Positions 7,383 through 50,194 of a DNA stretch of 64,000 nt are shown in pieces. Origin of the DNA: Thiocapsa rosea. GTDB taxonomy: Bacteria > Pseudomonadota > Gammaproteobacteria > Chromatiales > Chromatiaceae. The stretch spans positions 5,498,501 through 5,562,500 of the forward strand of contig NZ_RBXL01000001.1 in the NCBI RefSeq assembly GCF_003634315.1, read 5' to 3'. A program made the translations under genes and the position numbers. Position 1 is the first letter of the stretch; the number at the start of each line of letters is the position of its first letter. Below the pieces are notes generated by a model. The model saw only the letters and a program-made list of their open reading frames with translations. It made no database searches and had not been told where the DNA came from.

Positions 7383-8568
7383 TAGGGCGGCGGGCTGGAC
7401 CGCCGCGAGGACGGCGGCGGCCACTGCCTGGTGGAGGCGCTGCCCGCCAACGCGCAGGCACGCCTCGCCGCGCCCGTTGGCGAGGTTGTCGCCGGGGCAG
7501 TCATAGGTCGGGGCGGCGTTGCGACCGCTGTAGGCCACCACCAGCTTGCGCCCGCAATGACCGCAGAGGGCGAGGCCCTGCAGCAGGGCCGCCCCTTCGC
7601 GCAGGGCGCCGCCGCCGTCGTGGCGGATCGGGCGGGTATTGGCGGCTAGGCGCACCTGATTGTCCTCGAAGGTCGCCCAGTCGATGAAGCCCTGGTGATG
7701 ATCATGCAGCACGACACTCCAATCCGCGCGTGGTAAGCGCTTGAGGCGTTTACGCACCTCGCCATGCTCGTCAATATAGCGCTCCTGGCGGGTTTTACCG
7801 TAGACGTAGGCGCCGGCATAGACCGGATTGGTGAGCACCTGGTGGATTTTCGTGTAGCTCGGCGTACCCCATTGAATGTCGCGGCACCCGCTCGCTTGCG
7901 TGGGGAAGGGCAGCGCCTCGCTGCGAAACCACAGCCAGACCCGCCGTGCCGAGCCCATCTCGGCGAAGCGCTCGAAGACGGCGCGGATCGCCCCGGTGAC
8001 CGCCGCGTCGGGGTGAAAACGGACCTCCCCGTCGGCCTCGCCCCACACCAGCCCGATGGGCAGACCCCGGCGCAGCTCCCCGCGCGCCGCCTTGTTGCGG
8101 ATACCGCCATTGAGGCGGGCACGCAGGACATGCAATTCCGCCTCGGACATGGTGCCCTTGAGGCCGAGCACGAGTCGATCGTTGAACAGCCCCGGGTGGT
8201 AGAGGCCGTCGGCATCGCCGATCAGCGTATCGGTCGTCCCGCACAGATCCAGCAGGCGGTACCAATCGGCATTGTTGCGGGCGAGTCGCGAGACCTCCAA
8301 GGCGAGCACGATCCCGACATGACCGAGCGCCACCTCGGCGGCAAGCTCGGCGAAGCCCGAGCGGGTGTTCAGGCCCGACCCGGAGAGGCCGAGATCCTGA
8401 TCGATCACCCGGATCTGCGCCGCCGGCCACCCGAGTTCTGCGGCGAAGGCCTGCAACTGATATTGCCGCGCGGTGGACTCGCGGTTGGATTCGACCTGTG
8501 CGCTGGTGGACTGGCGGATGTAGACCACCGCGAGACGCGCGCGATGCGAGGGCGTGATTTTGCCGAGC

Positions 8569-8743
8569 TCAGTCATCGGGATGCTCCTGCGGCTGTGGAG
8601 CACGCCGGGCCAGCACGATCCGGCGCATCAGACGCGCCAGCAGTGCGCGAACGCTCTGTTGCTGCTCGGGTCGGAGGGTCTCCCACGCCGGTACGGCCCC
8701 GGCAGGCGGTGGTGGCTGCAGGAAGGTCAACTGCTCGGGCATC
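8569..8743 (-). CDS. Small conserved ORF upstream of the serine recombinase
   Basis: A 57-residue frame from ATG 8743 (MPEQLTFLQPPPPAG) ends in the TGA overlapping the recombinase start. Its middle (WETLRPEQQQSVRALLARLMRRIVLARR) resembles the equivalent ORF of the other serine-recombinase elements (WSTLPPRQRERLIVLLSRLVEHRL), which supports it being real. Function is unknown. The position suggests a recombination directionality or regulatory partner, but that is inference. Confidence 0.55.
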
Positions 8744-15669: not shown

Positions 15670-16674
15670 ATGAGTGCGCCTTTCGTCCGTAAACAACTGA
15701 GCGCCGTAGGCCTGCTACAGACAGCGCGGCGGGTGTTCGGGACGATCCCAGATACGCCCGGCAACGCGATTGCGCTGGTCGATCAGCTGACGTTGGGGCT
15801 TGCGTTGTTCGGGTGAAGTATCCCTCGCTGTTGCAGTTCGAGCACGACTGCCGGGAAGAGACGACGAGGGCGAATCTCCAAGCACTCTCCGGCGTGGAGC
15901 GCGCCCCGAGCGACACGCCCTTTCGCGACCGCCTTGATGCGGTGGATCCGAACCACCTGCGTCCGCTGTACAGGACACTGTTCGCCGAGTTGCAGCGCGA
16001 AAGGGGCTGGAGGGGTTTGCCTGCCTCGATGACAGTTATCTGCTCTCGCTCGTAGGCACGGGCTACTTCTCCTCGCAGACGATCCACTGTGCGCAGTGCG
16101 CCGAGAAACACCATCGCAACGGCGCCTCCTATCACCAGCTGCTCGGGGCGATGCTGGTGCATCCGGACGGCGCGGAGGTTTCCCCGCTCGCCCCCGAGCC
16201 GATCCTCAAGCCCGACGGGGCGTAGAAAAACGACTGCGAGCGCAAGGCCGCCAAGCGCCTGCTCACGGATCTGCGCCGCGAACACCCGCATCCGAAGCTG
16301 ATCGTCATGGAAGACGCGTTGGCTTCCAATGGTCCGCAGATTCGCCATCTACAAGCGCTTGATCTACTTTTTATTCTCGGCGCCAAACAGAGTGACCATA
16401 CGTTATCTGTTCGACCGGGTGGCGGCCAGCAGCGCGCCGACCACCGAAGCGAGGCGCAGCGAGGAGAACGGATTCCGCCACCCCTTACGCTACCTCAACG
16501 GCGTCCCGTTGAACGACGCCAACTTCGACCTCGAGGTGAACGTCCTCGAGTATTCCGAGCACGCCCCCGACGTTAATATCGTCCACTTCTTCTGGGTGAC
16601 CGATATCCCCGTGGACAACAGCAACCTGATGCCCCTTATGCAAGGAGCCCGCGCACGCTGGAAGAAAACAGTCC
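15670..16674 (+). pseudogene. Degenerate IS4-like DDE transposase
   Basis: It begins MSAPFVRKQLSAVGLLQTARRVFGTIPDTPG. Reading then needs several frame changes (for example after LALFG and near 16010), and there is a TAG at about 16225 before KNDCERKAAKRLL. Later segments are LIVMEDALASNGPQIRHLQALD, NGVPLNDANFDLEVNVLEY and VTDIPVDNSNLMPLMQGARARWK. Coding stops in RWK, where family members continue IENE with the catalytic Glu. A serine-recombinase fragment follows directly. Confidence 0.75.
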
Positions 16675-16947
16675 GCAGACCTTGAGCATTTGATACCAGT
16701 CCCGCTAGCTGCGCGCCAAGCGCGAGATCTCGATGCCGAGGACGATGCCGACATGATCCAGACCGACTTCGGCCATCAGCCGCTGAAAGCCGGGCCGACC
16801 CTCGACGCTCGCCCCGGAACGGCACAGGTCCTCATCGATCAGGAGGATCTGCGAGGGAGACCAGCCCGGCTTGACCGCCCGATCCAGCAAGGCGTACTGC
16901 AGCCGGGTCGACTCCTGGTGGCGCTCCACTCGCTGCAGCGTGGATTC
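16675..16947 (-). pseudogene. Fragment of the serine-recombinase element
   Basis: The minus strand matches about 270 bp of the recombinase at 23818-25974, covering residues RTRLQYALLDRAV through PGFQRLMAEVGLDHVGIVLGIEISRLAR. It is cut at both ends. It abuts a transposase gene at the same RW motif that full copies occupy elsewhere, so it is probably the remnant of a third insertion after deletion. Confidence 0.8.
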
Positions 16948-17200
16948 AGCGAAATCAAGCAGAGGATCGGCAGTGCCCAGACGCAAACGCTCAACCCCGA
17001 TGACGTCACCAACCATCTCCGGTTCTGCATGGTGGCCACCACCGTTACCTGGATCTACGGGCCCGCTTAAAAAAAATTCCCCGCGCTTCGTACCGAACCA
17101 CCGCTCGCACATAATCTCGCCAACTCGGGTTTCGGGGTCAACTGCGGAGATCCCAGCCACGGCACCCGAAATGCCCTCATCGCTGCTGTCATGGTGCTGG
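16948..17200 (+). pseudogene. Transposase C-terminal fragment
   Basis: The frame LNPDDVTNHLRFCMVATTVTWIYGPA, after one stop, continues as KKFPALRTEPPLAHNLANSGFG and GTRNALIAAVMVLVA. It looks like the C-terminus of a DDE transposase of a family I cannot name. Broken and incomplete. Confidence 0.45.
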
Positions 17201-18549: not shown

Positions 18550-18593
18550 GTCGGGTAGCAGGGTGACCTTACGGTCACCCCGCCCCCTAAGGT

Positions 18594-20582
18594 AGGGTCG
18601 AGAACTGGCGCGCCGAGGTTAGGGTCCGGTGGATCCTCCAGCGCTTTCGCGCTGGCCCTCAGTCCGGCTCCCATGATCACGTTTCCAGCCCCCGCCACGT
18701 CAAACCCGGCGTGCCGTTTTCCGGCACCGGGCTTTCCTGCCGACTTCACATCCAGGGTTATGAGACCGCTTGCACTGGGAGCGCTTTCGGCTTACGCAGC
18801 CCGATTCGGTACCCGTCGTAGAGCCCGAGCACCTCGTATAGCCACGTCCTACTCCACCTCTTCCAGCCAAAGCCCTGACGCTGCCGCGCGCGCATCAGAT
18901 GGCGCCGAATCTTCTTCTCCACCCAATCTTGGACATACCCGAAACAGCGACTGGAGTGCCCCACCCGAAAGTAGCCTACCCACCCCCTGAGGATCGGATT
19001 GATCAAGGCGATCACCCGATCGATCGGCTGCGAGCGGTAGCGGCGGAACACGTCCTTGAGGCGTTGTAGGATCGCGGTACGCGCCTTCATCCGTGGCGTG
19101 TAACGCGCGCCCCAGACCCCGCGCCGAGTCTTGGCCCGGCGGAAGTCAAAGCCCAGGAAGCTGAATGCCCCTCCCCGGCTCAGGTCCAGCCGTCGTGTCT
19201 TGTCTTGATTGAGTTGCACATCGAGCTTGGCCAACTCCTCGACCAAGCGTCGCCAGGCCGCGTCCTTGAGCCAGTTCCACCGGCGATACCCATCGACCAA
19301 GATCACCAGGTCATCGGCATAACGGGCATACTCGATATAGGTATAGCGTCCGTTGCGGGTGACCTCCTTGGCCCGCTCCAGCATCCGGTCGACCTCGTTG
19401 AGGTAGAGGTTACTGAGCAGGGGTGAGATCACACCGCCTTGCGGAACGCCCCGCTTGCCACTGGCCTTGAGGATACGCTTGAGCAAGCCCAAGACCTGAT
19501 CATCGCGGACCCGCTCCGCCACCTTCCCCAAGAGGAGATCGTGACGAACCGTGTCGAAGTAAGACGCCAGGTCCACATCAATCACATAGGTCTTGTTGCT
19601 CACAATGGCCTCGGCCACGCGCTGCACGGCTTGATGCGCCGTGCGCTTGGGTCGGTATCCATAGCTTCCATCCTGGAAGTCAGCCTCGAAGATCGGCTCC
19701 AGAATCAGCTTGAGCGCCCCCTGGACCACGCGATCGCGAATGCAGGGAATCCCCAGGACGCGCATGCGCCCGTCTCCCTTGGGAATCTCCCGGCGGCGAT
19801 TCGGTTGCGGTCGGTAGGTTCCGATGACCAGCTCATCCCGGATGCCTTTCAGAAACGCCTCCACGCCAGCCGCCTCGATGGCCGCGAACGTCACCCCGTC
19901 ACTGCCGGGGGCACCGTTGTTCGCTTTCGCCATCGCATAGGCCGCGTGCAGGGTCTCCTCTTTGCACACGTGGACGTAGAGTCCCCAGAAGCGCCAGGCC
20001 GGTTCAGCCTTCGCCTTGATGTAGATCCTCTTCCTCAGGTCTTGCAGATCGATGGGCGTCGTTGTCATCTCGCCCCTGCCTCCCATCTTGTTCAAGGATT
20101 GCCAACAGTAGGGCGCCTTCGCTCCACGGACATTACCCCGCTTCAGCGCTACTACGCGCCCATCCGCCACCCGCTCGCCTTCGGTCCACTTCCCGGTGTC
20201 GCCGGTTATAAGACCTACCTTGCTCCGGGGATTTCGCCCCGGGGCGAGACGGGCTTCTCCAGTTGCTTAGCGTGCCCTTGCCACCATGCCGTCGCTACTC
20301 ACCCCGCCGAAGTGGTCGGATCGTCTCGGTCAGATTTCGACCCGCCATGCTGCCTTCGCCCCACGGTTGCAGGCTCGGCCTTCGGAGCTACGCATTGTCG
20401 AGGCCATCATTGCGTTCACTGTTGTTACGGCCTGGTGACTCGCCACCTCCCCAAGGAAGGTGCTGTCGATCGGCTTCAGAGTCTTGGTCTCCCGCCACCC
20501 TGCGATCCAAGCTACGGGGCTCCTGACTGTTACCCCGGCAGGACTGTCTCCTGCTGAACACGCCAGCCTTCGCTGGACACAC
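18594..20582 (-). mobile_element. Inner group II intron of the left twintron
   Basis: It starts GTGTGTCCAGCG directly after outer domain V, contains its own maturase, and has a domain V-like hairpin at 18703-18733 (AGCCCGGTGCCGG / CACGCCGGGTT). The 3' end is near 18594 but not fixed; the next recognisable outer sequence is the GGGGGCGGGG strand of domain VI. Confidence 0.65.
18758..20068 (-). CDS. ltrA: Group II intron reverse transcriptase/maturase (inner intron, left copy)
   Basis: 436 residues from ATG 20068 (MTTTPIDLQDLRKRIYIKAK), which has a GGAGGCAGGGG ribosome site. RT blocks: NGAPGSDGVTFAAIE, GIPCIRDRVVQGALKLILEP, GYRPKRTAHQAVQ, VIDVDLASYFDTVRHDLL, RGVPQGGVISPLLSNLYL and active site YARYADDLVIL. 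The maturase domain follows (NPILRGWVGYFRVGHSSRCF). No HNH endonuclease. Supports splicing and mobility of the inner intron. Identical to 29296-30606. Confidence 0.92.
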   Translation of the reverse strand: MTTTPIDLQDLRKRIYIKAKAEPAWRFWGLYVHVCKEETLHAAYAMAKANNGAPGSDGVTFAAIEAAGVEAFLKGIRDELVIGTYRPQPNRRREIPKGDGRMRVLGIPCIRDRVVQGALKLILEPIFEADFQDGSYGYRPKRTAHQAVQRVAEAIVSNKTYVIDVDLASYFDTVRHDLLLGKVAERVRDDQVLGLLKRILKASGKRGVPQGGVISPLLSNLYLNEVDRMLERAKEVTRNGRYTYIEYARYADDLVILVDGYRRWNWLKDAAWRRLVEELAKLDVQLNQDKTRRLDLSRGGAFSFLGFDFRRAKTRRGVWGARYTPRMKARTAILQRLKDVFRRYRSQPIDRVIALINPILRGWVGYFRVGHSSRCFGYVQDWVEKKIRRHLMRARQRQGFGWKRWSRTWLYEVLGLYDGYRIGLRKPKALPVQAVS

Positions 20583-20674
20583 AACCGTGCTTGCGACTTT
20601 CACCGCACACGGCTCAAGCCTTGAAAAGGCACCGTGAAGCACCCGGCGATCAACGGGGGTTCGGCTAAGACGCG

Positions 20675-22126
20675 TCACGCGACGAGCCATGCAGGAGCCT
20701 GCACGGGTAGCCGTCCCCGCTGACGCCCGCGACGCTCGACGAAATAGTCGGCCTGTTGCGGGTCGTAGGGGTTGGCGTCGCCGCGGATCTTCACATGGCG
20801 TCGAATCGGGATACTCGCCATCCGAAAGAGCGTGACCGATCCGTCCGTGAACACCCAGTCTCGGCCGTCCTTGTGGGCATAATAGCGATCCTTGAGCCAC
20901 TTGCGGCCTTTTTGGGGATGTCGTCGTTTGGCCCAATTCCATGTCATGCACCAGATCGCGTGATCGATGTCGCTGAAGGTCTCCTTGCTCACGACATGGC
21001 GGTAGTAGAAACCCCATCCCCGAATGACGGGATTGAGGCGCCGGATCAACACATCCTGCGACAGGCTGCCGCCCGCTTCGAGGAGGGTCCGGACCTTTTC
21101 CTTAACCGCGGCGATACTGGGTTTGGCCGGTGTGATGAGCAGTTTTCCATGATACTTGCGCAGATTGAAGCCGAGGAAGTCGAACCCGTCGTCGATATGC
21201 ACGATCCGGGTTTTCGCTTCGGACAGCTCCAGGCCTCGCTCCATGAGGAACTGCTGCACCAGGGGTTTGACCTCATCGGCCAGCAGCGCCAAGGACGCGC
21301 CGGTGATGATGAAGTCATCCGCATAGCGGACCAGGTTGACCTTGTCACGGGGGTGGAACCGCGCACGCAGGCGCTGCTCCAGCCCGTCGAGGGCCATATT
21401 GGCCGCCGTCGGGGAGAGGATCCCCCCTTGCGGAGTGCCTTGCGTCGTAGGACGGAAGACCCCGCGTTCCATGAAACCGGCCTTGAGCCAGCCCCGCAGC
21501 TTCCCTTGGTTCGTCGGGACATGTTCGAGGAGCCACGGATGTGACAATTCATCGAAACAGGCCCGGATATCCCCTTCCAGAATCCATTCGGCGCAGTTGC
21601 GTCGACACAGTGCGAGAAAACACCCGGCGATCGCATCATGCGCCCCGCGCGCCTTGCGAAAGCCATAGGAGCACGGGTCGGCCAGGGTTTCCGACACCGG
21701 ATCCAGCGCCAGCAACTCCAGGGCCTGTTCGGCCCTGTCGGCGTGCACCGGAATGCCGAGCGGGCGGCGTTTTCCGTTTTTCTTGGGGATGTAGATCCGT
21801 CTAAGCGGTTTTGGCCGGTAGTCCCTTGCATTCAACCGATGGGCTTGTCGCCACTTGCGCGCGGGGGTATTCAACAGCGCACCATCGACCCCCGGCGTGT
21901 TCTTGCCCCGATTGGAACTCACCCGCTGCACCGCCAAGAGTTTGGCGGCGAGCGAGTTGGCGAGCAGGCGTTGCAGCGACCGCACGCGGTGCCACTTGCC
22001 GGCTCTGACCGCCTTCACGATTCGCGCTTGGAGTCGGCCGACGAGACGACGTATCCTGGACCAGTCGATGGCAAACCAGGGCGCCGTCCCATCCCGAGGG
22101 CCTTCAATGATGCCGAGGGCAATCAT
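20675..22126 (-). CDS. ltrA: Group II intron reverse transcriptase/maturase (outer intron, left copy)
   Basis: 483 residues. An N-terminal RT0-type region (RRLVGRLQARIVKAVRAGKWHRVRSLQRLL, SNRGKNTPGVDG) precedes RT blocks IYIPKKNGKRRPLGIPVHADRAEQ, YGFRKARGAHDAI, EGDIRACFDELSH, QGTPQGGILSPTAANMAL and LVRYADDFIITG. The maturase helix region follows (LNPVIRGWGFYYRHVVSKETF), then a basic tail (YFVERRGRQRGR). The start at 22126 is the longest in frame; an internal start is possible. A different RT subclass from the inner intron's enzyme. Identical to 27238-28689. Confidence 0.92.
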   Translation of the reverse strand: MIALGIIEGPRDGTAPWFAIDWSRIRRLVGRLQARIVKAVRAGKWHRVRSLQRLLANSLAAKLLAVQRVSSNRGKNTPGVDGALLNTPARKWRQAHRLNARDYRPKPLRRIYIPKKNGKRRPLGIPVHADRAEQALELLALDPVSETLADPCSYGFRKARGAHDAIAGCFLALCRRNCAEWILEGDIRACFDELSHPWLLEHVPTNQGKLRGWLKAGFMERGVFRPTTQGTPQGGILSPTAANMALDGLEQRLRARFHPRDKVNLVRYADDFIITGASLALLADEVKPLVQQFLMERGLELSEAKTRIVHIDDGFDFLGFNLRKYHGKLLITPAKPSIAAVKEKVRTLLEAGGSLSQDVLIRRLNPVIRGWGFYYRHVVSKETFSDIDHAIWCMTWNWAKRRHPQKGRKWLKDRYYAHKDGRDWVFTDGSVTLFRMASIPIRRHVKIRGDANPYDPQQADYFVERRGRQRGRLPVQAPAWLVA

Positions 22127-23817
22127 CGTCTAAAGAAACCCGTCGGGTTGAGCCTGTCGCAGGCGTGTTTCGTGAGTCAAGACCCGCCGGAAGTCTGCCC
22201 CCTTTCGGGGTAGGGCAAAGCTTGAACCCCTATCCGACCCATTACGGATCGGCATTCGCTTTCTCCGGCATCCTTTACCCGCTCGCCCGCGGGTCGACCC
22301 TTGCGGGCCGCTGTCCACCGTCCTTGTGGGAGCGATCGGGCTTACCACGTTTCGCATGTGTACCATTCCCGAAGGGGTTAGGCTCCGCCTCTCCGCCGGC
22401 AGCGCGACATCTGCGCGGGGCCAACATTGGAAGCCCCGACCTGACTGCCCACCTTTTGGTCCATGCCTGGTCAGCCTCTTTGGCATGTTCTTAGTAACGA
22501 CGGCTCAACAGCGATTCACCTGAGTTAGCCTTGCCCTTCAACCCCGGCTCCCGACCGCCTCGAGGCTGGCAGTCGCGACCTCCCCTCGCGGTTTGGTCGC
22601 CCGTCTGATCGACGGAGGCTACCGTGTCCCGGACGCTTCGCACCTCGGGGTTACCCCCGACGCACGGCCCGGTAGGGTACCGGCGGCAGAACGCCGGATC
22701 TCTTTGATCTCCTTGATAAATACACATGCGACATCGTGTCGCACGAATGTCGTTAAGTTAGCGTTTTTTGAATCATAACCCTCTGACAATGTTAGAATAG
22801 TTCTGTATTCACAACCCGATGCGAGGGCACCCAAATGGTACTCAAACCCAAGGCGACTGACTTCACCCCCACTGAAATCGCACACATAACGGGGATTTTC
22901 TTCTATCTATAGGGCTATAAGCAATACTTTGGCATCGTCGGACTTCATGGAGCGCCACCGGGTCGGGGAGAAAGCGTTCACGCGCGATCGTAAGCTGCCG
23001 CTGCCGCAACTGGTGAGGTTTTTGCTGAACTTACGCAAAGGTGCCAACCAGGACGAATTGGATCGCTTCTTCGAGGTCGTGTGCGAGCAACCGCTGGCCG
23101 ACAGTGTCTCCAAGTCGGCTCTGACCCAAGCCCGCGCCAAGCTGCGTCCCGAGGCGTTCAGCGAACTCAGTGATGTGCTGGTGAACGAGGCGATGCGTAC
23201 GCTGCCGATGCGCCGCTGGCATGGTTTTCGGCTGCTGGCGGTGGACGGGTCGACGTTTCTGTTGCCCAAGGAACCGGCGATCGTGGAGGCGTTCGGGCAA
23301 ACCGGAGAGGTCACGCCGCAGGCGCGTTTCTCGCGGCTCTACGACGTCCTCAATCGTGTCATCGTGGCGGCGGACATCGAGCCGTTGAGCGTCGGCGAGC
23401 GCATTCTGGCCGGCGAGTATCTGCCGGCGACCCGGGTCGATGATCTGCTGCTCTACGATCGCGGCTATCCGGCGTTCTGGCTGTTTGCCTCCCACGCCGT
23501 CGAGCAACGCCACTTCTGTGTCCGTGTGCCGCGCGCCTTCTGCACCGAGGTGGAGGCGTTTGCCGCCGGTGGCGCGCGCAGCGCCGTGATTGAGCTGACG
23601 CCCTGCGATGAAGCGCGTCGCCAATGCCAAGCCTTTGGCTTGCCGACCGAGGCGCTGCGGCTGCGCCTGATTCGGGTGCACCTGAAGAGCGGGGAGGAGG
23701 AGTTCCTGATCACCTCGCTGCTCGACGAGGAGGCATTCCCCACGCCGCTGTTCAAGCACTTGTACCATCTGCGCTGGGGCATCGAGATTGACCAGACATG
23801 GTGCCTCCATAAATCAC

Positions 23818-25974
23818 TCAGGCAGGGTCGACGGAGGGATCGTCGCTCCCGACGCGGACATGCCGCGCCCAGCGGCGGGGGACGCTGCGCAGGGCACGCA
23901 GGCGCTCGATCTCGGCGGCGTCGGCGCGAATCAACCATTGGCGGTGACCGCCCCGCTCGACCCGGCGGGCCTGCAGCACGCCTTTGCGTAGCCAGCTGAA
24001 CAGGGTGACCGACGGCATCTCCAGTTCCAGCGCCAACTCGCTGATGCTCCATTCGTCGGCCTGCCGATCGACCCAAGGCGCTTGTCGGCGCGTCGACGAA
24101 CCCGCCGAAACGCCCTGACGGGCGAGCAAGGTTGCCACCATCGCGGCATTGAAGGTCTGCCGCCGTTTCGCCGGATGCCACCGCTCGTTATTGAGTTGCC
24201 GCGCGATCTGCGCACAGGTCTGCCCCTCTTGATGTAAGCATAGAACACGCGCCGCCAGTTCGGGATAGGTGCTGAGCTGCTCCAGACGCGCCACCGGACG
24301 GGTCAGGCGTTCCCGGGTGCGGTGACCGCCGATCCAGTGCACCTCCACGGCGACCTGCTCGCTGTCGTCGATGACCGTGACGATGACCCGCTCCACGAGC
24401 AGTCGCACGATGGCTTGGCGTTCGTCGTTGCCGGTGGTCTCGGCGTTCCAGAGGGCCGGAAGGTCGCCGGCGAGTCGGCGGATCCGCGCGCGCTCCTCGG
24501 CCGACAACGCGGTCGGCTCGCTCGCCATGCAACGCGCATACTCGGCCTTGAGCTGATCCTCCGCGGCCAGGGCCGCCTCCCAATCCTGCTCCAGGGTGCG
24601 CGCCACCAGCCGATTCTCCGGCTCGACCGCGCGATACTGCCGCGCGGCACGCTCGGCGTCATAACGGGCGCGCTCCAGACGCTGTTGCCAGTGGGCGTGC
24701 CGGCGCGCGCGCTCGGCTTGGAGGTCCTCGGCGACCTGCAGGCTGATCTCCAACGCCGCCGGCTGCAGCGCCTCCAGGACCAACCGGCCGATCAACGCGT
24801 CAAGCGGCCCACCGCTGAGCGATTGACACAGCGGCGCCCCGTAGTCGACCGCCTCGCGGCTGCAGCTGTAGCGCAATCCGGATCCGCTGTTGGTGTATTG
24901 CGTGGCCATGGCCAGACCGCAGCGACCGCAGATCAGGCGACCCGACAGCAACGAGGGGCCCGCACGGACCACGCCGCCGGCTTGGGCGGTATTGGCCGCG
25001 AGCTGGCGCAGGTTCCGCTCGTATTGGTCCCAGTCGATGTAGGCCGGCAGGTGATCTTTGATCAGCACCTCCCACTGCTGCGGCGGCGCGACCGTGCGCC
25101 CGCTCGACGGACGTCCCGGCTGGCGACGGCGTGGATCCGTGGGGCGACGCCCGTAGGCGTAGGCACCGGCGTAGATGGGGTTGTGCAGCAGGTTGCTCAG
25201 CGTCACGCGGTTGGGGCGACGCCAGTCGAGCTCGCCGGTGCGCGGACCGCTGCGCACCCGATCGGGCAATTGGATGTGCTGATCCACCAGATAACGCAGA
25301 ACCCCGTTGATCGTGCCGCACCGTTGGAACTGCCGAAACACCGTCTCGATCACGCCCCGAACCTGCGCGTCGGGATCCTTGATCACCTCTCCGGAGGGCG
25401 CGCGGACATAGCCGCGCGGCAGCAGCGCGTGCAGCTCTCCGCGGCGTGCCTTCGCGCGCTTGCCCTCGAGCATGCGCTGCTTGAGGATGTGCAGCTCCGC
25501 TTCCGACATCGTCCCCTTCAGTCCCAACAGCAACCGGTCGTTGTAGGTCTGCGGATCATAGATCCCGTCGGCATCCCCGATCAGGGTCGCAAACAGTCCG
25601 CAGACCTCCAGCAATTGATACCAGTCCCGCGAGCTGCGCGCCAAGCGCGAGATCTCGATGCCGAGGACGATGCCGACATGATCCAGGCCGACTTCGGCCA
25701 TCAGCCGCTGAAAGCCGGGCCGGCCCTCGGCGCTCGCCCCGGAACGGCCCAGGTCCTCATCGATCAGGAGGATCTGCGAGGGCGACCAGCCCAGCTCGAC
25801 CGCCCGATCCACCAGGGCGTACTGCAGCCGGGTCGACTCTTGGTGGCGCTCCACTTGCTGCAGCGTGGATTGGCGCACGTAGACCACGGCTTGGCGCTGC
25901 AGATGCGAGGACTGGATCTTCCCGTACGTCGAGTTGGCCGGCGCACGGTACACGGGCGAGAGGACGGCGCTCAT
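23818..25974 (-). CDS. Large serine recombinase (copy A)
   Basis: 718 residues. The resolvase domain has catalytic Ser36 in VYVRQSTLQQVERHQEST, plus DEDLGRSGASAEGRPGFQRLM, EISRLARSSRDW and LKGTMSEAELH. A recombinase domain follows (RRPNRVTLSNLLHNPIYAGAYAYGRR). The zinc ribbon is ICGRCGLAM ... RYSCSREAVDYG. A long coiled segment comes near residues 420-480 (ERARRHAHWQQRLERARYDAERAARQY), then a C-terminal excisionase-like HTH (WSISELALELEMPSVTLFSWLRKGVLQARR). It would integrate and excise its element by Ser-DNA intermediates. The added HTH may help choose the target, but this is inference. Complete and probably active. Confidence 0.92.
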   Translation of the reverse strand: MSAVLSPVYRAPANSTYGKIQSSHLQRQAVVYVRQSTLQQVERHQESTRLQYALVDRAVELGWSPSQILLIDEDLGRSGASAEGRPGFQRLMAEVGLDHVGIVLGIEISRLARSSRDWYQLLEVCGLFATLIGDADGIYDPQTYNDRLLLGLKGTMSEAELHILKQRMLEGKRAKARRGELHALLPRGYVRAPSGEVIKDPDAQVRGVIETVFRQFQRCGTINGVLRYLVDQHIQLPDRVRSGPRTGELDWRRPNRVTLSNLLHNPIYAGAYAYGRRPTDPRRRQPGRPSSGRTVAPPQQWEVLIKDHLPAYIDWDQYERNLRQLAANTAQAGGVVRAGPSLLSGRLICGRCGLAMATQYTNSGSGLRYSCSREAVDYGAPLCQSLSGGPLDALIGRLVLEALQPAALEISLQVAEDLQAERARRHAHWQQRLERARYDAERAARQYRAVEPENRLVARTLEQDWEAALAAEDQLKAEYARCMASEPTALSAEERARIRRLAGDLPALWNAETTGNDERQAIVRLLVERVIVTVIDDSEQVAVEVHWIGGHRTRERLTRPVARLEQLSTYPELAARVLCLHQEGQTCAQIARQLNNERWHPAKRRQTFNAAMVATLLARQGVSAGSSTRRQAPWVDRQADEWSISELALELEMPSVTLFSWLRKGVLQARRVERGGHRQWLIRADAAEIERLRALRSVPRRWARHVRVGSDDPSVDPA

Positions 25975-26101
25975 CGGCGTTCTCCTCTGCCATCCCGGCT
26001 GCGCTCAGCCGATGTTCGACCAAGCGGCTCAGCAGGACAATCAGGCGCTCTCGCTGCCGCGGCGGCAGTGTGCTCCAATCGATCGGAGCCTTGCGCGTCA
26101 T
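25757..26101 (-). CDS. Small accessory ORF of the serine-recombinase element, copy A
   Basis: From ATG 26101 the frame MTRKAPIDWSTLPPRQRERLIVLLSRLVEHRLSAAGMAEENADER resembles the small ORF at 8569-8743. The open frame runs on past the recombinase start at 25974, so the functional 3' end is uncertain and the tail is probably only overlap. Function unknown; position suggests a partner of the recombinase. Confidence 0.4.
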   Translation of the reverse strand: MTRKAPIDWSTLPPRQRERLIVLLSRLVEHRLSAAGMAEENADERRPLARVPCAGQLDVREDPVLASAAPSRGLRAPIHAAASGAPPRVDPAAVRPGGSGGRAGLVALADPPDR

Positions 26102-27237
26102 GCCGGTGATCCAGCCATTTCGCAAGTTCCAACAACGCCCTACAATCCAGTATTGGTGACGTTTCGGGGGTTGTCAAAAACGCATCTACGGCGGTTTTCG
26201 TGATGGGGTATCGAGGAGGGGTACAAAACGGAAAAATCCCGGGTCGAGGTGGAGAACTTCTCCGGGCGCACGGTGCACGCACTCAAGCAGGACGTCCTCG
26301 CCAAGATCTTGACGCTCAACCTCACGGCGATCCTGGTGTGGGTGGCGCAATGGATGACCACGCGCCTGTATCAGGAGCGCCGACGCGGCTATCAGGTCAA
26401 CTTCGCCAATGCACTGTCGAAAATGAAGGACAACGTCGTGCGCCTGCTCTCTTTGGAGCCACCGCCCGGCCTCCTTGAACGGCTCCTCTGTGCCATGGCA
26501 CTGGAGGTGGAGGCGATCCGGCCCGATCGGTCGTTCCCGCGTAACATCAAGTCCACGAAGCCAAAACGCTTCCATCCCAACTACAAGCGCTGCCGCTAGG
26601 GCTTAACTTAATGGCATTGGTGCGACACGAGGTCGCATGTGTATTTATCAAGGAGATCAAAGAGATCCGGCGTTCTGCCGCCGGTACCCTACCGGGCCGT
26701 GCGTCGGGGGTAACCCCGAGGTGCGAAGCGTCCGGGACACGGTAGCCTCCGTCGATCAGACGGGCGACCAAACCGCGAGGGGAGGTCGCGACTGCCAGCC
26801 TCGAGGCGGTCGGGAGCCGGGGTTGAAGGGCAAGGCTAACTCAGGTGAATCGCTGTTGAGCCGTCGTTACTAAGAACATGCCAAAGAGGCTGACCAGGCA
26901 TGGACCAAAAGGTGGGCAGTCAGGTCGGGGCTTCCAATGTTGGCCCCGCGCAGATGTCGCGCTGCCGGCGGAGAGGCGGAGCCTAACCCCTTCGGGAATG
27001 GTACACATGCGAAACGTGGTAAGCCCGATCGCTCCCACAAGGACGGTGGACAGCGGCCCGCAAGGGTCGACCCGCGGGCGAGCGGGTAAAGGATGCCGGA
27101 GAAAGCGAATGCCGATCCGTAATGGGTCGGATAGGGGTTCAAGCTTTGCCCTACCCCGAAAGGGGGCAGACTTCCGGCGGGTCTTGACTCACGAAACACG
27201 CCTGCGACAGGCTCAACCCGACGGGTTTCTTTAGACG

Positions 27238-28689
27238 ATGATTGCCCTCGGCATCATTGAAGGCCCTCGGGATGGGACGGCGCCCTGGTTTGCCATCGAC
27301 TGGTCCAGGATACGTCGTCTCGTCGGCCGACTCCAAGCGCGAATCGTGAAGGCGGTCAGAGCCGGCAAGTGGCACCGCGTGCGGTCGCTGCAACGCCTGC
27401 TCGCCAACTCGCTCGCCGCCAAACTCTTGGCGGTGCAGCGGGTGAGTTCCAATCGGGGCAAGAACACGCCGGGGGTCGATGGTGCGCTGTTGAATACCCC
27501 CGCGCGCAAGTGGCGACAAGCCCATCGGTTGAATGCAAGGGACTACCGGCCAAAACCGCTTAGACGGATCTACATCCCCAAGAAAAACGGAAAACGCCGC
27601 CCGCTCGGCATTCCGGTGCACGCCGACAGGGCCGAACAGGCCCTGGAGTTGCTGGCGCTGGATCCGGTGTCGGAAACCCTGGCCGACCCGTGCTCCTATG
27701 GCTTTCGCAAGGCGCGCGGGGCGCATGATGCGATCGCCGGGTGTTTTCTCGCACTGTGTCGACGCAACTGCGCCGAATGGATTCTGGAAGGGGATATCCG
27801 GGCCTGTTTCGATGAATTGTCACATCCGTGGCTCCTCGAACATGTCCCGACGAACCAAGGGAAGCTGCGGGGCTGGCTCAAGGCCGGTTTCATGGAACGC
27901 GGGGTCTTCCGTCCTACGACGCAAGGCACTCCGCAAGGGGGGATCCTCTCCCCGACGGCGGCCAATATGGCCCTCGACGGGCTGGAGCAGCGCCTGCGTG
28001 CGCGGTTCCACCCCCGTGACAAGGTCAACCTGGTCCGCTATGCGGATGACTTCATCATCACCGGCGCGTCCTTGGCGCTGCTGGCCGATGAGGTCAAACC
28101 CCTGGTGCAGCAGTTCCTCATGGAGCGAGGCCTGGAGCTGTCCGAAGCGAAAACCCGGATCGTGCATATCGACGACGGGTTCGACTTCCTCGGCTTCAAT
28201 CTGCGCAAGTATCATGGAAAACTGCTCATCACACCGGCCAAACCCAGTATCGCCGCGGTTAAGGAAAAGGTCCGGACCCTCCTCGAAGCGGGCGGCAGCC
28301 TGTCGCAGGATGTGTTGATCCGGCGCCTCAATCCCGTCATTCGGGGATGGGGTTTCTACTACCGCCATGTCGTGAGCAAGGAGACCTTCAGCGACATCGA
28401 TCACGCGATCTGGTGCATGACATGGAATTGGGCCAAACGACGACATCCCCAAAAAGGCCGCAAGTGGCTCAAGGATCGCTATTATGCCCACAAGGACGGC
28501 CGAGACTGGGTGTTCACGGACGGATCGGTCACGCTCTTTCGGATGGCGAGTATCCCGATTCGACGCCATGTGAAGATCCGCGGCGACGCCAACCCCTACG
28601 ACCCGCAACAGGCCGACTATTTCGTCGAGCGTCGCGGGCGTCAGCGGGGACGGCTACCCGTGCAGGCTCCTGCATGGCTCGTCGCGTGA
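27238..28689 (+). CDS. ltrA: Group II intron reverse transcriptase/maturase (outer intron, right copy)
   Basis: Same protein, residue for residue, as 20675-22126, including the LVRYADDFIITG active site. It lies in domain IV of the outer intron, upstream of the domain V at 28749. Because the intron 3' part is now separated from it by the inner intron and an IS, self-mobility in cis needs the inner elements to be removed first or the RNA to fold around them. Confidence 0.92.
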   Translation: MIALGIIEGPRDGTAPWFAIDWSRIRRLVGRLQARIVKAVRAGKWHRVRSLQRLLANSLAAKLLAVQRVSSNRGKNTPGVDGALLNTPARKWRQAHRLNARDYRPKPLRRIYIPKKNGKRRPLGIPVHADRAEQALELLALDPVSETLADPCSYGFRKARGAHDAIAGCFLALCRRNCAEWILEGDIRACFDELSHPWLLEHVPTNQGKLRGWLKAGFMERGVFRPTTQGTPQGGILSPTAANMALDGLEQRLRARFHPRDKVNLVRYADDFIITGASLALLADEVKPLVQQFLMERGLELSEAKTRIVHIDDGFDFLGFNLRKYHGKLLITPAKPSIAAVKEKVRTLLEAGGSLSQDVLIRRLNPVIRGWGFYYRHVVSKETFSDIDHAIWCMTWNWAKRRHPQKGRKWLKDRYYAHKDGRDWVFTDGSVTLFRMASIPIRRHVKIRGDANPYDPQQADYFVERRGRQRGRLPVQAPAWLVA

Positions 28690-28748
28690 CGCGTCTTAGC
28701 CGAACCCCCGTTGATCGCCGGGTGCTTCACGGTGCCTTTTCAAGGCTT

Positions 28749-28781
28749 GAGCCGTGTGCGGTGAAAGTCGCAAGCACGGTT
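28749..28781 (+). ncRNA. Domain V of the outer group II intron (right copy)
   Basis: GAGCCGTGTGCGGTGAAAG followed by TCGCAAGCACGGTT folds into the canonical 33-34-nt catalytic hairpin with the AGC-type triad and a GAAA-like loop. The inner intron begins on the very next base. The mirrored copy is at 20583-20615 (-). Confidence 0.85.
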
Positions 28782-30772
28782 GTGTGTCCAGCGAAGGCTG
28801 GCGTGTTCAGCAGGAGACAGTCCTGCCGGGGTAACAGTCAGGAGCCCCGTAGCTTGGATCGCAGGGTGGCGGGAGACCAAGACTCTGAAGCCGATCGACA
28901 GCACCTTCCTTGGGGAGGTGGCGAGTCACCAGGCCGTAACAACAGTGAACGCAATGATGGCCTCGACAATGCGTAGCTCCGAAGGCCGAGCCTGCAACCG
29001 TGGGGCGAAGGCAGCATGGCGGGTCGAAATCTGACCGAGACGATCCGACCACTTCGGCGGGGTGAGTAGCGACGGCATGGTGGCAAGGGCACGCTAAGCA
29101 ACTGGAGAAGCCCGTCTCGCCCCGGGGCGAAATCCCCGGAGCAAGGTAGGTCTTATAACCGGCGACACCGGGAAGTGGACCGAAGGCGAGCGGGTGGCGG
29201 ATGGGCGCGTAGTAGCGCTGAAGCGGGGTAATGTCCGTGGAGCGAAGGCGCCCTACTGTTGGCAATCCTTGAACAAGATGGGAGGCAGGGGCGAGATGAC
29301 AACGACGCCCATCGATCTGCAAGACCTGAGGAAGAGGATCTACATCAAGGCGAAGGCTGAACCGGCCTGGCGCTTCTGGGGACTCTACGTCCACGTGTGC
29401 AAAGAGGAGACCCTGCACGCGGCCTATGCGATGGCGAAAGCGAACAACGGTGCCCCCGGCAGTGACGGGGTGACGTTCGCGGCCATCGAGGCGGCTGGCG
29501 TGGAGGCGTTTCTGAAAGGCATCCGGGATGAGCTGGTCATCGGAACCTACCGACCGCAACCGAATCGCCGCCGGGAGATTCCCAAGGGAGACGGGCGCAT
29601 GCGCGTCCTGGGGATTCCCTGCATTCGCGATCGCGTGGTCCAGGGGGCGCTCAAGCTGATTCTGGAGCCGATCTTCGAGGCTGACTTCCAGGATGGAAGC
29701 TATGGATACCGACCCAAGCGCACGGCGCATCAAGCCGTGCAGCGCGTGGCCGAGGCCATTGTGAGCAACAAGACCTATGTGATTGATGTGGACCTGGCGT
29801 CTTACTTCGACACGGTTCGTCACGATCTCCTCTTGGGGAAGGTGGCGGAGCGGGTCCGCGATGATCAGGTCTTGGGCTTGCTCAAGCGTATCCTCAAGGC
29901 CAGTGGCAAGCGGGGCGTTCCGCAAGGCGGTGTGATCTCACCCCTGCTCAGTAACCTCTACCTCAACGAGGTCGACCGGATGCTGGAGCGGGCCAAGGAG
30001 GTCACCCGCAACGGACGCTATACCTATATCGAGTATGCCCGTTATGCCGATGACCTGGTGATCTTGGTCGATGGGTATCGCCGGTGGAACTGGCTCAAGG
30101 ACGCGGCCTGGCGACGCTTGGTCGAGGAGTTGGCCAAGCTCGATGTGCAACTCAATCAAGACAAGACACGACGGCTGGACCTGAGCCGGGGAGGGGCATT
30201 CAGCTTCCTGGGCTTTGACTTCCGCCGGGCCAAGACTCGGCGCGGGGTCTGGGGCGCGCGTTACACGCCACGGATGAAGGCGCGTACCGCGATCCTACAA
30301 CGCCTCAAGGACGTGTTCCGCCGCTACCGCTCGCAGCCGATCGATCGGGTGATCGCCTTGATCAATCCGATCCTCAGGGGGTGGGTAGGCTACTTTCGGG
30401 TGGGGCACTCCAGTCGCTGTTTCGGGTATGTCCAAGATTGGGTGGAGAAGAAGATTCGGCGCCATCTGATGCGCGCGCGGCAGCGTCAGGGCTTTGGCTG
30501 GAAGAGGTGGAGTAGGACGTGGCTATACGAGGTGCTCGGGCTCTACGACGGGTACCGAATCGGGCTGCGTAAGCCGAAAGCGCTCCCAGTGCAAGCGGTC
30601 TCATAACCCTGGATGTGAAGTCGGCAGGAAAGCCCGGTGCCGGAAAACGGCACGCCGGGTTTGACGTGGCGGGGGCTGGAAACGTGATCATGGGAGCCGG
30701 ACTGAGGGCCAGCGCGAAAGCGCTGGAGGATCCACCGGACCCTAACCTCGGCGCGCCAGTTCTCGACCCTAC
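28782..30772 (+). mobile_element. Inner group II intron of the right twintron
   Basis: GTGTGTCCAGCGAAGGCTGG at the start, maturase at 29296-30606, domain V-like hairpin at 30631-30661. Its 3' end lies near 30770, just before the GGGGGCGGG strand of outer domain VI; the exact base is not fixed. Mirrors 18594-20582. Confidence 0.65.
29296..30606 (+). CDS. ltrA: Group II intron reverse transcriptase/maturase (inner intron, right copy)
   Basis: Identical protein to 18758-20068, starting at ATG 29296 behind GGAGGCAGGGGCG. It keeps the YARYADDLVIL active site and the full maturase region to the C-terminus (RKPKALPVQAVS). Probably functional. Confidence 0.92.
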   Translation: MTTTPIDLQDLRKRIYIKAKAEPAWRFWGLYVHVCKEETLHAAYAMAKANNGAPGSDGVTFAAIEAAGVEAFLKGIRDELVIGTYRPQPNRRREIPKGDGRMRVLGIPCIRDRVVQGALKLILEPIFEADFQDGSYGYRPKRTAHQAVQRVAEAIVSNKTYVIDVDLASYFDTVRHDLLLGKVAERVRDDQVLGLLKRILKASGKRGVPQGGVISPLLSNLYLNEVDRMLERAKEVTRNGRYTYIEYARYADDLVILVDGYRRWNWLKDAAWRRLVEELAKLDVQLNQDKTRRLDLSRGGAFSFLGFDFRRAKTRRGVWGARYTPRMKARTAILQRLKDVFRRYRSQPIDRVIALINPILRGWVGYFRVGHSSRCFGYVQDWVEKKIRRHLMRARQRQGFGWKRWSRTWLYEVLGLYDGYRIGLRKPKALPVQAVS

Positions 30773-30785
30773 CTTAGGGGGCGGG

Positions 30786-32656
30786 GGCCTTGATCATCGA
30801 TTGGTCCACTGTTGCTAAGCCGCCACAGGAACGAGGTAAGGCTGCCTTGCCGGGCGCGGTCGTCGTCGGGCCGGTCGGGCGGGCCAGGGCATGCGCTCGA
30901 GCACCTGCTCGAACAAGGATGGGTGGGGTTGAGCGAAGAAGCGCTCGGCGGCCGTGGTGCCGTCGGGCCGCTTGATCGCAAAGTTGTGCAGGGCGGTCAA
31001 GACCTGCTGCTTGCGCGGGCTGAGTCGGTGATGCCCATGCTGATAGAGCGCGAGGAAGCCGTTGCGTCCCTCGACACAGGAGCTGCTGCGCTGGAACAGA
31101 TCGGCACACTCCCCGGCGACCTGCTCGAGATGGTGACGGGTCTGCGGATCCAGCGACTGGATCGGGTGCGAGGGCTGCCTCAGCGGGGCGAGACGCTGCG
31201 CACTCAGTGCCCGGAGTCGATGACGGGGCTCGGCGCGGGTGCTGCGTGCGGCGACGCGCTCCAGATAAAGCGCCGGGATCAGGTCGTCGAGCATCGCCTG
31301 CTCGATGGCCGGTGCCAAGTCCAGCGCCTGCACCCGGGTGTTGACCATCATGAAGAAGAAGGTCAGCGTGGCGACGAGGCTTTGAGTCAGGCGCTTCGCC
31401 TTGGCCAGATGTGCGCAGAGACGCTCGGAAAGATCCGCTTCCTCGGCGATCGCCTCCAGGCGAGCAAACAGCGTTCCCAGACGCGCCTCCAACTGCTCGG
31501 GGGTTTGCGCCTGTCCCTGTTGGATCTCGTAGGGATGGTCGACCTCGCTGAACGCACCGATCAGGGCTTTGGCCTCGGCGCGGTGCGCGTGGGCCTGCTC
31601 GCGCGCAAGGCTGGCTTGGACGTAAGCGCTCAGCGCCTCGTCGATGCGCGCGGCGAACGCCGGCGGGCGCCCGGGGCCGTGGCGGCGCCGATGATAGGCC
31701 TGCTCGGCGGCGCATTCGTCTTGCCAGCGCGCCTTCGCCTCGGCCTCCGCCGTCTCGGCCTGTTGCTCGGCGCGCTTCAGCGACAGACTCATCGCCTGGC
31801 TGACCGCATGCTGCAGATGAAACAGGTCTGTGGAATGATGCGCGCCCAGATCACGCTCGACATGCGCCAACAGCCCCTTGGCCTCATCGCTGGTGCCTTG
31901 CACCACCGTGACATTCAGCCCCTCGAGTCCACCCTCGAGCGCCCGTGTCCAGGCCGCCGCCGAGCGCTCATCGCTCCTGTGCTCGAGCAGGATGAAGTTC
32001 GAGACCGCATCGATGCCCACCAAACGCATGCCGTCTTTCCACGTCTCATCTTCGGCGATGCTCAGTGTGCGATGGGGCATGGCTTGGGCCAGCGTCCCGC
32101 GCAGTTCGGTGGCGGCGGTGACGATCTGCTCCTCCAAGCCGGCATGGAACGCCTGCTGCGCACCGTAGGAGGCGCCGATGAATGCCGACAGCCCACTGCG
32201 CTCGAGAAAATCGCAGACCACGCGCACGCCCGCGCCGCCCTGCTCGCCGATGCTCCAGTGCGCGGCAACCAGGATCCGGCGCAGCCACACCACGCCTTCG
32301 GGCGTCTCGACGAAGGCCGACAGCGCCGACGGCGCCGATGGCGCAGGGGGCGCGCTCCAGTGACGCAGGGTGCTGCGCGCCACGCCGGCGCCGCTGACCG
32401 CCGCGCGTTGACTCTGCCCATCCTGCCGGGCTTGCGCCACCGCATGCCGATGCTTGGCGCGATCCAAGCGATCGTGGATTGGCGTGGGGCGTCGATCTGC
32501 ACTAGAGTCGACACAGGCAGGAGCATCGGACAACGGCGTTTCCCTCGGTCAGTTTGCACTTCCAAGGGTACGCCTCCCCGGCGCTCCTGCCACTCCTTCA
32601 GGGTGCTTGATCGCCTACCGAAACACGCGGTTTTGGACCAACCGATGATCAAGGCC
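30786..32656 (-). mobile_element. IS with DUF6399-type transposase, inserted in the right twintron
   Basis: The tips are GGCCTTGATCATCGATTGGTCC at 30786 and, inward from 32656, GGCCTTGATCATCGGTTGGTCC. Perfect 8-bp repeats GGGGCGGG flank it (30778-30785 and 32657-32664). Length is 1871 bp. Two 132-bp MITEs at 11835 and 40501 share these tips and the 8-bp duplication size. The uninterrupted left arm shows the empty site. Confidence 0.92.
30815..32533 (-). CDS. Transposase with DUF6399-like C-terminal domain
   Basis: 572 residues filling the element. Central segment: WKDGMRLVGIDAVSNFILLEHRSDERSAAAW, with VVQGTSDEAKGLLAHVERDLGAHHSTDLFHLQHAVS. These hold plausible catalytic acidic residues. A long Ala/Glu-rich coiled region follows (AEAEAKARWQDECAAEQAYHRRRHGPGRPP). 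The C-terminal part has SSCVEGRNGFLALYQHGHHRLSPRKQQVL, a segment I associate with DUF6399. Presumed DDE-type with a large helical insertion. Complete, and the obvious candidate to mobilise the two MITEs. Confidence 0.8.
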   Translation of the reverse strand: MSDAPACVDSSADRRPTPIHDRLDRAKHRHAVAQARQDGQSQRAAVSGAGVARSTLRHWSAPPAPSAPSALSAFVETPEGVVWLRRILVAAHWSIGEQGGAGVRVVCDFLERSGLSAFIGASYGAQQAFHAGLEEQIVTAATELRGTLAQAMPHRTLSIAEDETWKDGMRLVGIDAVSNFILLEHRSDERSAAAWTRALEGGLEGLNVTVVQGTSDEAKGLLAHVERDLGAHHSTDLFHLQHAVSQAMSLSLKRAEQQAETAEAEAKARWQDECAAEQAYHRRRHGPGRPPAFAARIDEALSAYVQASLAREQAHAHRAEAKALIGAFSEVDHPYEIQQGQAQTPEQLEARLGTLFARLEAIAEEADLSERLCAHLAKAKRLTQSLVATLTFFFMMVNTRVQALDLAPAIEQAMLDDLIPALYLERVAARSTRAEPRHRLRALSAQRLAPLRQPSHPIQSLDPQTRHHLEQVAGECADLFQRSSSCVEGRNGFLALYQHGHHRLSPRKQQVLTALHNFAIKRPDGTTAAERFFAQPHPSLFEQVLERMPWPARPARRRPRPARQPYLVPVAA

Positions 32657-49554: not shown

Positions 49555-49681
49555 CGGCGTTCTCCTCTGCCATCCCGGCTGCGCTCAGCCGATGTTCGAC
49601 CAAGCGGCTCAGCAGGACAATCAGGCGCTCTCGCTGCCGCGGCGGCAGTGTGCTCCAATCGATCGGAGCCTTGCGCGTCAT
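49337..49681 (-). CDS. Small accessory ORF of the serine-recombinase element, copy B
   Basis: Identical to the frame at 25757-26101 (MTRKAPIDWSTLPPRQRERL...). Its 3' half overlaps the recombinase start, so the true end is uncertain. Confidence 0.4.
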   Translation of the reverse strand: MTRKAPIDWSTLPPRQRERLIVLLSRLVEHRLSAAGMAEENADERRPLARVPCAGQLDVREDPVLASAAPSRGLRAPIHAAASGAPPRVDPAAVRPGGSGGRAGLVALADPPDR

Positions 49682-50194
49682 GCCGGTGATCCAGCCATTT
49701 CGCAAGTTCCAACAACGCCCTACAATCCAGTATTGGTGACGTTTCGGGGGTTGTCAAAAACGCATCTACGGCGGTTTTCGTGATGGGGTATCGAGGTCTA
49801 TTTCAAGGTCTTGAAGAGCGGCTGTCGGATCGAGGAGCTCCAACTGGAGACACGCGCCCGCTTGGAGCCGGCACTCGCCTTCTACATGATCATCGCCTGG
49901 CGCGTGTTGTACCTCACCATGCTCGGGCGCGACTGCCCCGAAATGCCCTGCGATGCGGTGTTCGCCGAGGAGGAATGGAAGGCCGTCTACTTGGTGACCC
50001 AGCGCATGCCGCCGCCCGAGGCGCCGCCGTCACTCGACACCATGGTGCGCATGATCGCCACCCTCGGCGGCTTCCTCAACCGCAAGGGCGATGGCTTTCC
50101 CGGCCCGAAAACGCTCTGGATCGGGCTGCAACGCATCCCCGATTTCGTGCTCGCGATCGAGGCGGTGAGGAGCGCCGGGGCGAGTTGTGGGTAA

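Follow-up and report, generated by a model that had tools for sequence, protein, structure and literature searches.

An apparently autonomous serine-recombinase mini-transposon at the catalytic-glutamate codon of transposase genes

Introduction

The stretch of DNA analysed here (the window) comprises 64,000 nucleotides from Thiocapsa rosea (contig NZ_RBXL01000001.1, positions 5,498,501 to 5,562,500). It contains two identical copies, A and B, of a 2.4-kb element whose sole large gene encodes a large serine recombinase of 718 residues on the minus strand. Copies A and B interrupt two mutually unrelated DDE transposases, each at the Glu codon of a W-x-I-E motif. We consider it highly probable that this element is an autonomous serine-recombinase mini-transposon which docks on the codon of the catalytic glutamate of transposases. 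The view is based on the reconstructed targets of both copies, on naturally empty sites, and on a survey of related recombinases in which 34 of 41 close loci use the same codon.

Two copies in two unrelated transposase genes

Copies A and B, 23.6 kb apart, agree in every base across 2,436 bp (23781-26216 in one, 47361-49796 in the other) and diverge immediately beyond both ends. When the flanks of each copy are joined, the reading frames are restored (the sign ^ marks the break): at A ...YHLRWGI^EEGYKTEK..., matching Pfam DDE_Tnp_1, and at B ...YLCRWQI^EVYFKVLK..., matching Pfam Tnp_DNA_bind and Dimer_Tnp_Tn5 and thus of the Tn5 type. Both restored transposases have the exact Y-2-R-3-E-6-K spacing and both breaks are inside the Glu codon. 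In both copies the recombinase is on the minus and the target transposase on the plus strand, i.e., they are antiparallel. The positions in the window are as follows.

23786-26214, minus strand: element copy A, 2,429 bp with the GA core counted once; from the identical block, length from the empty twin L234
47366-49794, minus strand: element copy B, 2,429 bp, identical to A; from the identical block
23818-25974, minus strand: large serine recombinase of copy A, 718 residues; Resolvase, Recombinase and zinc ribbon domains (Pfam)
47398-49554, minus strand: large serine recombinase of copy B, identical to that of copy A
22929-23786, plus strand: N-terminal part of target A, DDE_Tnp_1 (IS4-type), through ...YHLRWGIE
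26216-26599, plus strand: C-terminal part of target A, EGYKTEK... through the stop
46410-47366, plus strand: N-terminal part of target B, Tn5-like, through ...YLCRWQIE; start approximate, from the Tnp_DNA_bind match
49796-50194, plus strand: C-terminal part of target B, VYFKVLK..., Dimer_Tnp_Tn5
23784-23785, plus strand: left GA crossover dinucleotide of copy A, bases 1-2 of the catalytic Glu codon of target transposase A
26213-26214, plus strand: right GA crossover dinucleotide of copy A, within the element end TGGGGTATCGA
47364-47365, plus strand: left GA crossover dinucleotide of copy B, from sequence and junction comparison
49793-49794, plus strand: right GA crossover dinucleotide of copy B, from sequence and junction comparison
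26184-26214, plus strand: right attachment arm of A, region of GCGGTTTTCGTGATGGGGTATCGA, from attP conservation
23784-23815, plus strand: left attachment arm of A, region of GAGATTGACCAGACATGGTGCCTCCATA, inverted partner of the right arm, from attP conservation

The same genome also contains target A in its empty state. At locus L234 (near 1.446 Mb, about 4.1 Mb from A along the contig), 2,663 bp are the same as in the window, 2,272 bp to the left of the junction and 391 bp to the right; the insert of 2,429 bp is all that is missing, and the open frame of 426 residues is intact. In G001, a relative from this genus, one Tn5-like insertion sequence (IS) of 2.38 kb is present in five long copies, three with the element and two empty. 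Both empty copies have 9-bp target duplications, and the alignment of occupied against empty copies demonstrates that the element was gained and nothing removed. The empty twin and the G001 copies together indicate that insertion is conservative, that copy A looks recent and that A and B are separate events. The outcome is an exact insert of 2,429 bp in the Glu codon, with no loss and no duplication beyond the GA core, and a broken transposase deprived of its Lys and C-terminal part.

A first-pass annotation of this DNA had reported identical copies in two clearly different transposase genes, each at an exact Y-2-R-3-E-6-K signature; the identity of 2,436 bp, the unrelated flanks and the joined reading frames confirm it. 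The question it raised, whether A and B are independent insertions rather than products of a segmental duplication, is answered in favour of independence by the unrelated flanks and the empty twin of A. It had placed the insert directly after the Glu codon. The codon is correct; since the core is GA, the first two bases of this codon, the insert lies inside it. The proposed core ATCGAG is replaced by the invariant GA, ATCGAG being part of a half-site plus core. The coordinates 23787-26215 for copy A are equivalent to 23786-26214 because a G follows both copies of GA. Inactivation of a competing IS is correct for the disrupted gene; intact copies of the same IS remain.

The recombinase and the gene content of the element

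PF00239, PF07508 and PF13408 are all above their cut-offs in the recombinase. The Resolvase domain is N-terminal (residues 29-180), followed by the Recombinase domain and the zinc ribbon. A C-terminal MerR-like helix-turn-helix is a weak Pfam match (19.7 bits, below the cut-off of 21.6) and is given no weight. DUF4368 is absent from the four Pfam families matched. The element has no cargo, phage or transfer genes. The possibility of a phage element was examined and rejected: no phage record matched at least 80% of the recombinase query, and the single match on a viral contig is partial (23%).

Upstream of the recombinase two short overlapping frames (25975-26190, minus strand) look conserved among relatives by eye, with the patterns S-P-R-L-G-x-x-A-L-x-x-L-A-x-W-L and W-x-x-L-P-x-x-x-R. 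Judged from these patterns, they are possible candidates for accessory or directionality factors.

Attachment sites

All 20 junctions compared, after removal of two near-duplicates, have the core GA, bases 1-2 of the Glu codon. Read in the direction of the target, attB is CGnTGGnnnRTnGA. Reconstruction of attP from both ends of the element gives TGGnnnATn-GA-nATnnnCCA, a near-palindrome which extends into longer outer arms; its TGG is invariant (20/20, the rows not all being independent as pairs such as L001/L002 and L083/L095 are the same element) and its wobble positions are free. The targets and the attP joint, as derived from the element ends, have TGGnnnATnGA in common. The half-site TGGnnnATn spells Trp-x-Ile: the non-degenerate bases are kept, the wobble bases are not, and the same holds for attP, on which no transposase coding constraint acts. 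The element end resembles the target because both carry the half-site of the recombinase itself. Thus, the resemblance described in the first-pass annotation is real, and the alleged mimicry is the enzyme's own half-site in a near-palindromic attP.

Eighteen sites from other genomes, without A and B, were used for a 24-bp matrix. Empty site A scored 20.6 and empty site B 24.4 bits, while the best background score was 18.0 bits in an 800-kb sample of the 6.1-Mb host genome read on both strands; A and B rank first. With a 62-bp matrix the two best background matches are ISAs1-like and contain H-W-T-I-E-N, as read by eye.

Survey of close relatives

Loci were gathered by recombinase similarity alone, flanks not considered; those from plasmids are 20 of the 60 matches listed. 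Among 369 evenly sampled genomes of the class, E<=1e-60 was reached in only three besides the window's own, and the breadth of the survey stems from relatives of the matching genomes and from plasmids. The 142 loci were reduced to 99 (4 without usable match, 12 with matches too short, 6 without 3' flank, 21 duplicates). The best aligned stretch was at least 50% identical to the window recombinase in 41 loci and below 50% in 58. Junctions were found by an automated search for TC-TC pairs; IS66, IS630 and IS3 targets were read with fixed ends. Eighteen of 50 flank open reading frames had no Pfam match, and the correct frames of L028 and L107 matched IS21 and IS701 models. BLAST clusters of flank reading frames, which include about 30 bases of element end, were given no weight, and assignments once resting on them were re-tested with the element end removed or by family search.

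In 34 of the 41 close loci, not all independent events as some carry identical or near-identical elements, the site is the catalytic Glu codon of a DDE-type transposase. Both junction halves support this in 25 and one half in nine (L009, L012, L013, L019, L079, L090, L101, L107, L135). This agrees with the expectation that most homologues use the Glu site. The supposed specialisation on the IS4 group is correct insofar as IS4-type targets are used; the range is far wider. Named by Pfam or NCBIfam match where present and otherwise by motif, the Glu targets are IS4-type, Tn5-like, IS5-like (DUF4096), IS701/DDE_5, IS1380 (DDE_Tnp_1_4) and IS3 (...DNAPM^ESFF, rve). From their motifs we take others to be IS630 (...SPDLNPI^EQAF) and ISAs1-like. 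The target of L023 is IS1634-like with a weak score (18.6 bits), and L135 and L012 match IS4 models below cut-off. The residue before Glu may be Val or Ala in some targets. Outside the Glu class, IS66 TnpB is the target in four of the 41 loci (L088, L097, L098, L099) and IstB in one (L105).

Hosts include Chromatiaceae, Ectothiorhodospira, a deltaproteobacterial metagenome-assembled genome, SAR324, Azospirillum, Skermanella, Rhodopila, Leptolyngbya and Streptomyces. Recombinases which are 94-100% identical occupy four transposase groups (L001; L002 and L024; L023; L041), i.e., close relatives use several target genes as do TnpX/TndX-like transposases. The recombinase is antiparallel to the transposase in 22 of 22 joined W-x-x-E loci and in the IS3 locus L096, and parallel to the target in both joined IS630 loci.

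Distant relatives and the change of targets

Of the 58 loci below 50% identity, eight were set aside as truncated or too far (L003, L032, L035, L051, L071, L116, L122, L123). Family searches, tblastn and reading identified a mobility gene at the 3' junction in 45 of the 50 usable loci; L031, L050, L094, L115 and L125 are outside this set. The targets are IstB (14), IS3 type (8), group II intron reverse transcriptase (8), IS66 transposase or TnpB (5), IstA (4), another large serine recombinase (2), and IS30, ISNCY, IS4 type and, weakly, a tyrosine recombinase (1 each). Both target halves were found by tblastn in 12 loci, six with IstB (L064, L075, L091, L109, L114, L136) and six with reverse transcriptase (L030, L080, L111, L112, L134, L142). 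Six more have one half by tblastn and the other by eye (IstB in L027, L137, L140, L141; IS3 in L128, L132). The remaining 27 of 45 were assigned from one side, four of them weakly: L070 (27.4 bits), L127 (E 0.0005), L092 and L121 (by eye only). In L120 IS3 pieces are on both sides in opposite orientation and no simple split gene results.

The break points are again at conserved motifs. In IstB they recur at F-G/P-D/E-P and once within the P-loop, GPP^GGGKS (L114). The reverse transcriptase is broken in motif A (DIDLxKF^FD) in L030, L111, L112 and L142, and after PKADGGKRPLGVP in L080. IS3 is broken at YN^xxRPH and IstA at KPRDK. IstB and IS3 targets occur in both orientations, unlike the Glu sites. 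Target type follows the recombinase tree, with 13 changes on 65 rows compared with 32-40 in 300 shuffles; this is a quick tree with a single label for all Glu targets and with one-sided assignments among the labels. L040 (frame-shifted translation), L032 (far outgroup) and L041, L092 and L138 (translations too short) were left out of the tree.

Probably, then, a whole superfamily of small serine-recombinase transposons constitutes a guild of hyperparasites. The attachment site of each clade would read conserved, often catalytic, codons of a mobility enzyme, target choice would evolve along the recombinase tree, and the guild would influence how long IS families persist in several phyla. The motifs so read would be the DDE catalytic Glu, the P-loop and F-G/P-D/E-P of IstB, K-P-R-D-K of IstA, motif A of reverse transcriptases, YNxxRPH of IS3, IS66, and large serine recombinases.

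Several individual loci deserve mention. In L222 (G464:C83) two recombinase elements that differ from each other occupy two conserved motifs of a single group II intron reverse transcriptase gene. In L017 and L073 the 3' junction is inside another large serine recombinase gene (Resolvase domain matched), near ...GIYDPQTYNDRLLL, i.e., these are parasites of the parasites. L118, a 36% relative, is located in an IS4-family transposase at the same motif with a break about three codons downstream (RWQVELFF^), a sequence which suggests that the same docking region may have been reached by independent evolution. Two distant recombinases, L127 and L115, follow one another in tandem, and at the 3' junction of L127 there is a weak resemblance to the end of a tyrosine recombinase (...LGHAKLDTTALYTRVA; E 0.0005). 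In L092, on plasmid pBPHY02 of Paraburkholderia phymatum, it is the recombinase gene that is interrupted, by an annotated gene for an IS4-family transposase.

Surroundings of the two copies

A and B are the only full copies found at the search threshold in the host genome (6.1 Mb, two contigs). Three further partial matches to relatives of the recombinase are all inside the window, and two of them are the halves of one split gene. A further large serine recombinase from this superfamily, at 4465-8603, is in two pieces (45% and 36% identity) separated by the open reading frame of a group II intron reverse transcriptase (5584-7041); here a recombinase of the guild is itself broken by a retro-element. 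At 16654-16950 there is a truncated remnant of a close recombinase relative with 85% identity and one internal stop. Perfect inverted repeats of 4,183 bp (18578-22760 and 26604-30786) with group II intron reverse transcriptases enclose the IS that copy A interrupts; next to the empty twin L234, too, part of the left arm is present.

Proposed mechanism

The element most likely leaves as a circle. The recombinase would then pair the circle joint (attP) with attB, which in a DDE transposase gene spans the conserved codons for Arg-Trp-x-Ile/Val-Glu. As expected for this enzyme family, both sites would be cleaved at GA, rotated and religated. Specificity would be derived from the DNA half-site TGGnnnATn beside the core. 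One recombinase can serve many IS families because unrelated transposases keep the W-x-I/V-E motif at the active site. Related recombinases have shifted to other conserved motifs of mobility genes.

That the active site of a transposase is a safe docking place, as the first-pass annotation suggested, is a reasonable inference. IS copies are numerous, dispensable for the host and still mobile, and so would offer a landing place which is safe and spreads; presumably the active-site codons of IS genes change slowly as well. With exact Glu-codon sites, and with relatives in other mobility genes, the element looks like a parasite specialised on DNA parasites.

Alternative explanations

Several observations weigh against an autonomous transposon that docks on the Glu codon. 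Its movement is inferred, as no excision, circle or transposition was seen. One of the 41 close loci is off target (L104, which is not in a mobility gene and adjoins a hairpin next to an epimerase gene), another (L102) was assigned to no target class, and the target of L023 has no Trp (T-E-V-E). Leave-one-out matrix scores range from -0.1 to 25.7 bits, the lowest being -0.1, 6.6 and 9.0, i.e., several real targets fit poorly. The conserved attB positions partly reflect the common ancestry of the target proteins. Finally, the 12-bp core alone is not selective, with 17-19 sites in 800 kb as good as A and B; therefore, flanking bases or a survival filter must also matter. As to L104, this element is a near-identical relative of those targeting IS66 TnpB, and its hairpin is GC-rich.

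A survival filter as the entire explanation, i.e., insertion of low specificity at many TGGnnnATnGA-like sites with survivors only in dispensable IS genes, would profit from the abundance of core sites, from the off-target insertion and from the dispensability of IS genes. We regard it as unlikely. At 24 bp A and B outscore all of the 800 kb; pseudogenes, intergenic DNA and non-essential genes should hold survivors too, yet only one of the 41 close loci is clearly off target; and sister clades are found at recurrent motifs of quite different mobility proteins. A benefit for the host, in which insertions silence the transposase and are kept by host selection, would fit the loss of the Lys and the C-terminal part of the target and has a claimed precedent in the group II intron RmInt1, described in the excerpt of PMC4238363 used here as restraining its host IS. 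Other uninterrupted copies of the same IS persist in the genome, however, so silencing is partial; exact targeting requires no such putative host benefit, and host defence as the main role appears quite improbable.

The element might also be immobile by itself and spread only as cargo of ISs mobilised in trans. Three G001 copies of the 2.38-kb IS do carry it, the occupied IS bodies differ by 14-33 bases mutually compared with 41-65 to the two empty copies, and the composite L185 has a 9-bp target duplication; this suggests that broken IS copies in G001 may still move in trans with the element inside. The composites L183 and L184 have no target duplication, though, and the distances are incongruent, the closest pair being L183-L184 for the IS and L184-L185 for the element. 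Above all, identical or near-identical elements reside in unrelated IS families. Hitch-hiking may add to self-mobility and cannot replace it; as the sole mode of spread it is very unlikely. A segmental duplication or an assembly artefact with an accidental joint to the transposase might be suspected because A and B are identical, 23.6 kb apart, and A is positioned between perfect inverted repeats. Identity, however, ends on either side at the core, the targets of A and B are unrelated proteins, A has an empty twin about 4.1 Mb away on the contig and the same junction recurs across many genomes, which leaves this explanation practically no room. An autonomous element docking on the Glu codon thus is the explanation which we prefer.

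Relation to known systems

TnpX of Tn4451 and TndX of Tn5397 are similar in that a large serine recombinase is the mobility enzyme, no ordinary target duplication is made and several targets are used. TnpX has a GA core and a circle joint resembling its targets. The element differs by its size of only 2.4 kb, the lack of cargo and the choice of active-site codons of transposases. The fixed GA dinucleotide and the conservative insertion evident from the empty twins are, as far as sequences tell, hallmarks of large serine recombinases. Its nearest curated NCBIfam model, XisF of the Anabaena fdxN element (NF041201), reaches 98.7 bits, far below the cut-off of 375 bits; XisF excises a developmental element from a single host gene. 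L093, which we take to be an element of the NGR234 y4bA-D type, belongs to the same recombinase superfamily (41% identity), yet has several accessory genes upstream and a different target motif. Its 3' junction, read on one side, is in an ISNCY transposase (NCBIfam, 326.9 bits, cut-off 250) at ...NTPQAK, presumably near the catalytic Glu.

Descriptions exist of large serine recombinases whose targets are conserved host genes and of a multi-targeting clade that includes TndX-like members; in the portion of PMC10083194 used here DUF4368 is present in 63% of this clade, i.e., in most members without strictly defining it. The window recombinase, in contrast, has no DUF4368 match. Serine integrases of phages and of integrative and conjugative elements dock at conserved coding sites such as Mg chelatase and prolyl isomerase genes (PMC10083194, same portion). 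The element shares with them conserved coding DNA as a dock, a dinucleotide core and the domain set. Those integrases use one host gene family each, whereas the element uses many unrelated mobile-element genes via one common motif and has no phage or transfer genes. In that portion of PMC10083194 no transposase gene is named as the target of a clade.

RmInt1, a group II intron living in ISRm2011-2 (PMC4238363), is likewise a mobile element resident in another one; it is a retro-element spliced out of RNA, whereas here a serine recombinase inserts DNA and the gene is broken. Members of the IS607 family are also small elements moved by a serine recombinase without target duplication. Their DNA-binding domain is N-terminal and their target specificity minimal according to the excerpts of PMC4058570 and PMC6188088 used here, while in the element the catalytic domain is N-terminal and the target exact. 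Direct searches of the open-licence literature of PubMed Central, a scope which excludes subscription papers and supplements, turned up no description of serine recombinases that target transposases. The chemistry is known; the ecological specialisation on transposase active sites appears new.

Biological significance

The niche of these mobile elements is the active-site codons of other mobile elements. This makes two ideas testable, namely that the spread of ISs is limited by parasites of parasites, and that a DNA-binding protein adapts to a protein motif via the non-degenerate codon positions. The relatives amount to a natural series in which the target specificity of serine recombinases has shifted, which helps to understand how these enzymes read DNA. 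Lastly, such elements may account for some of the broken transposase genes in bacterial genomes.

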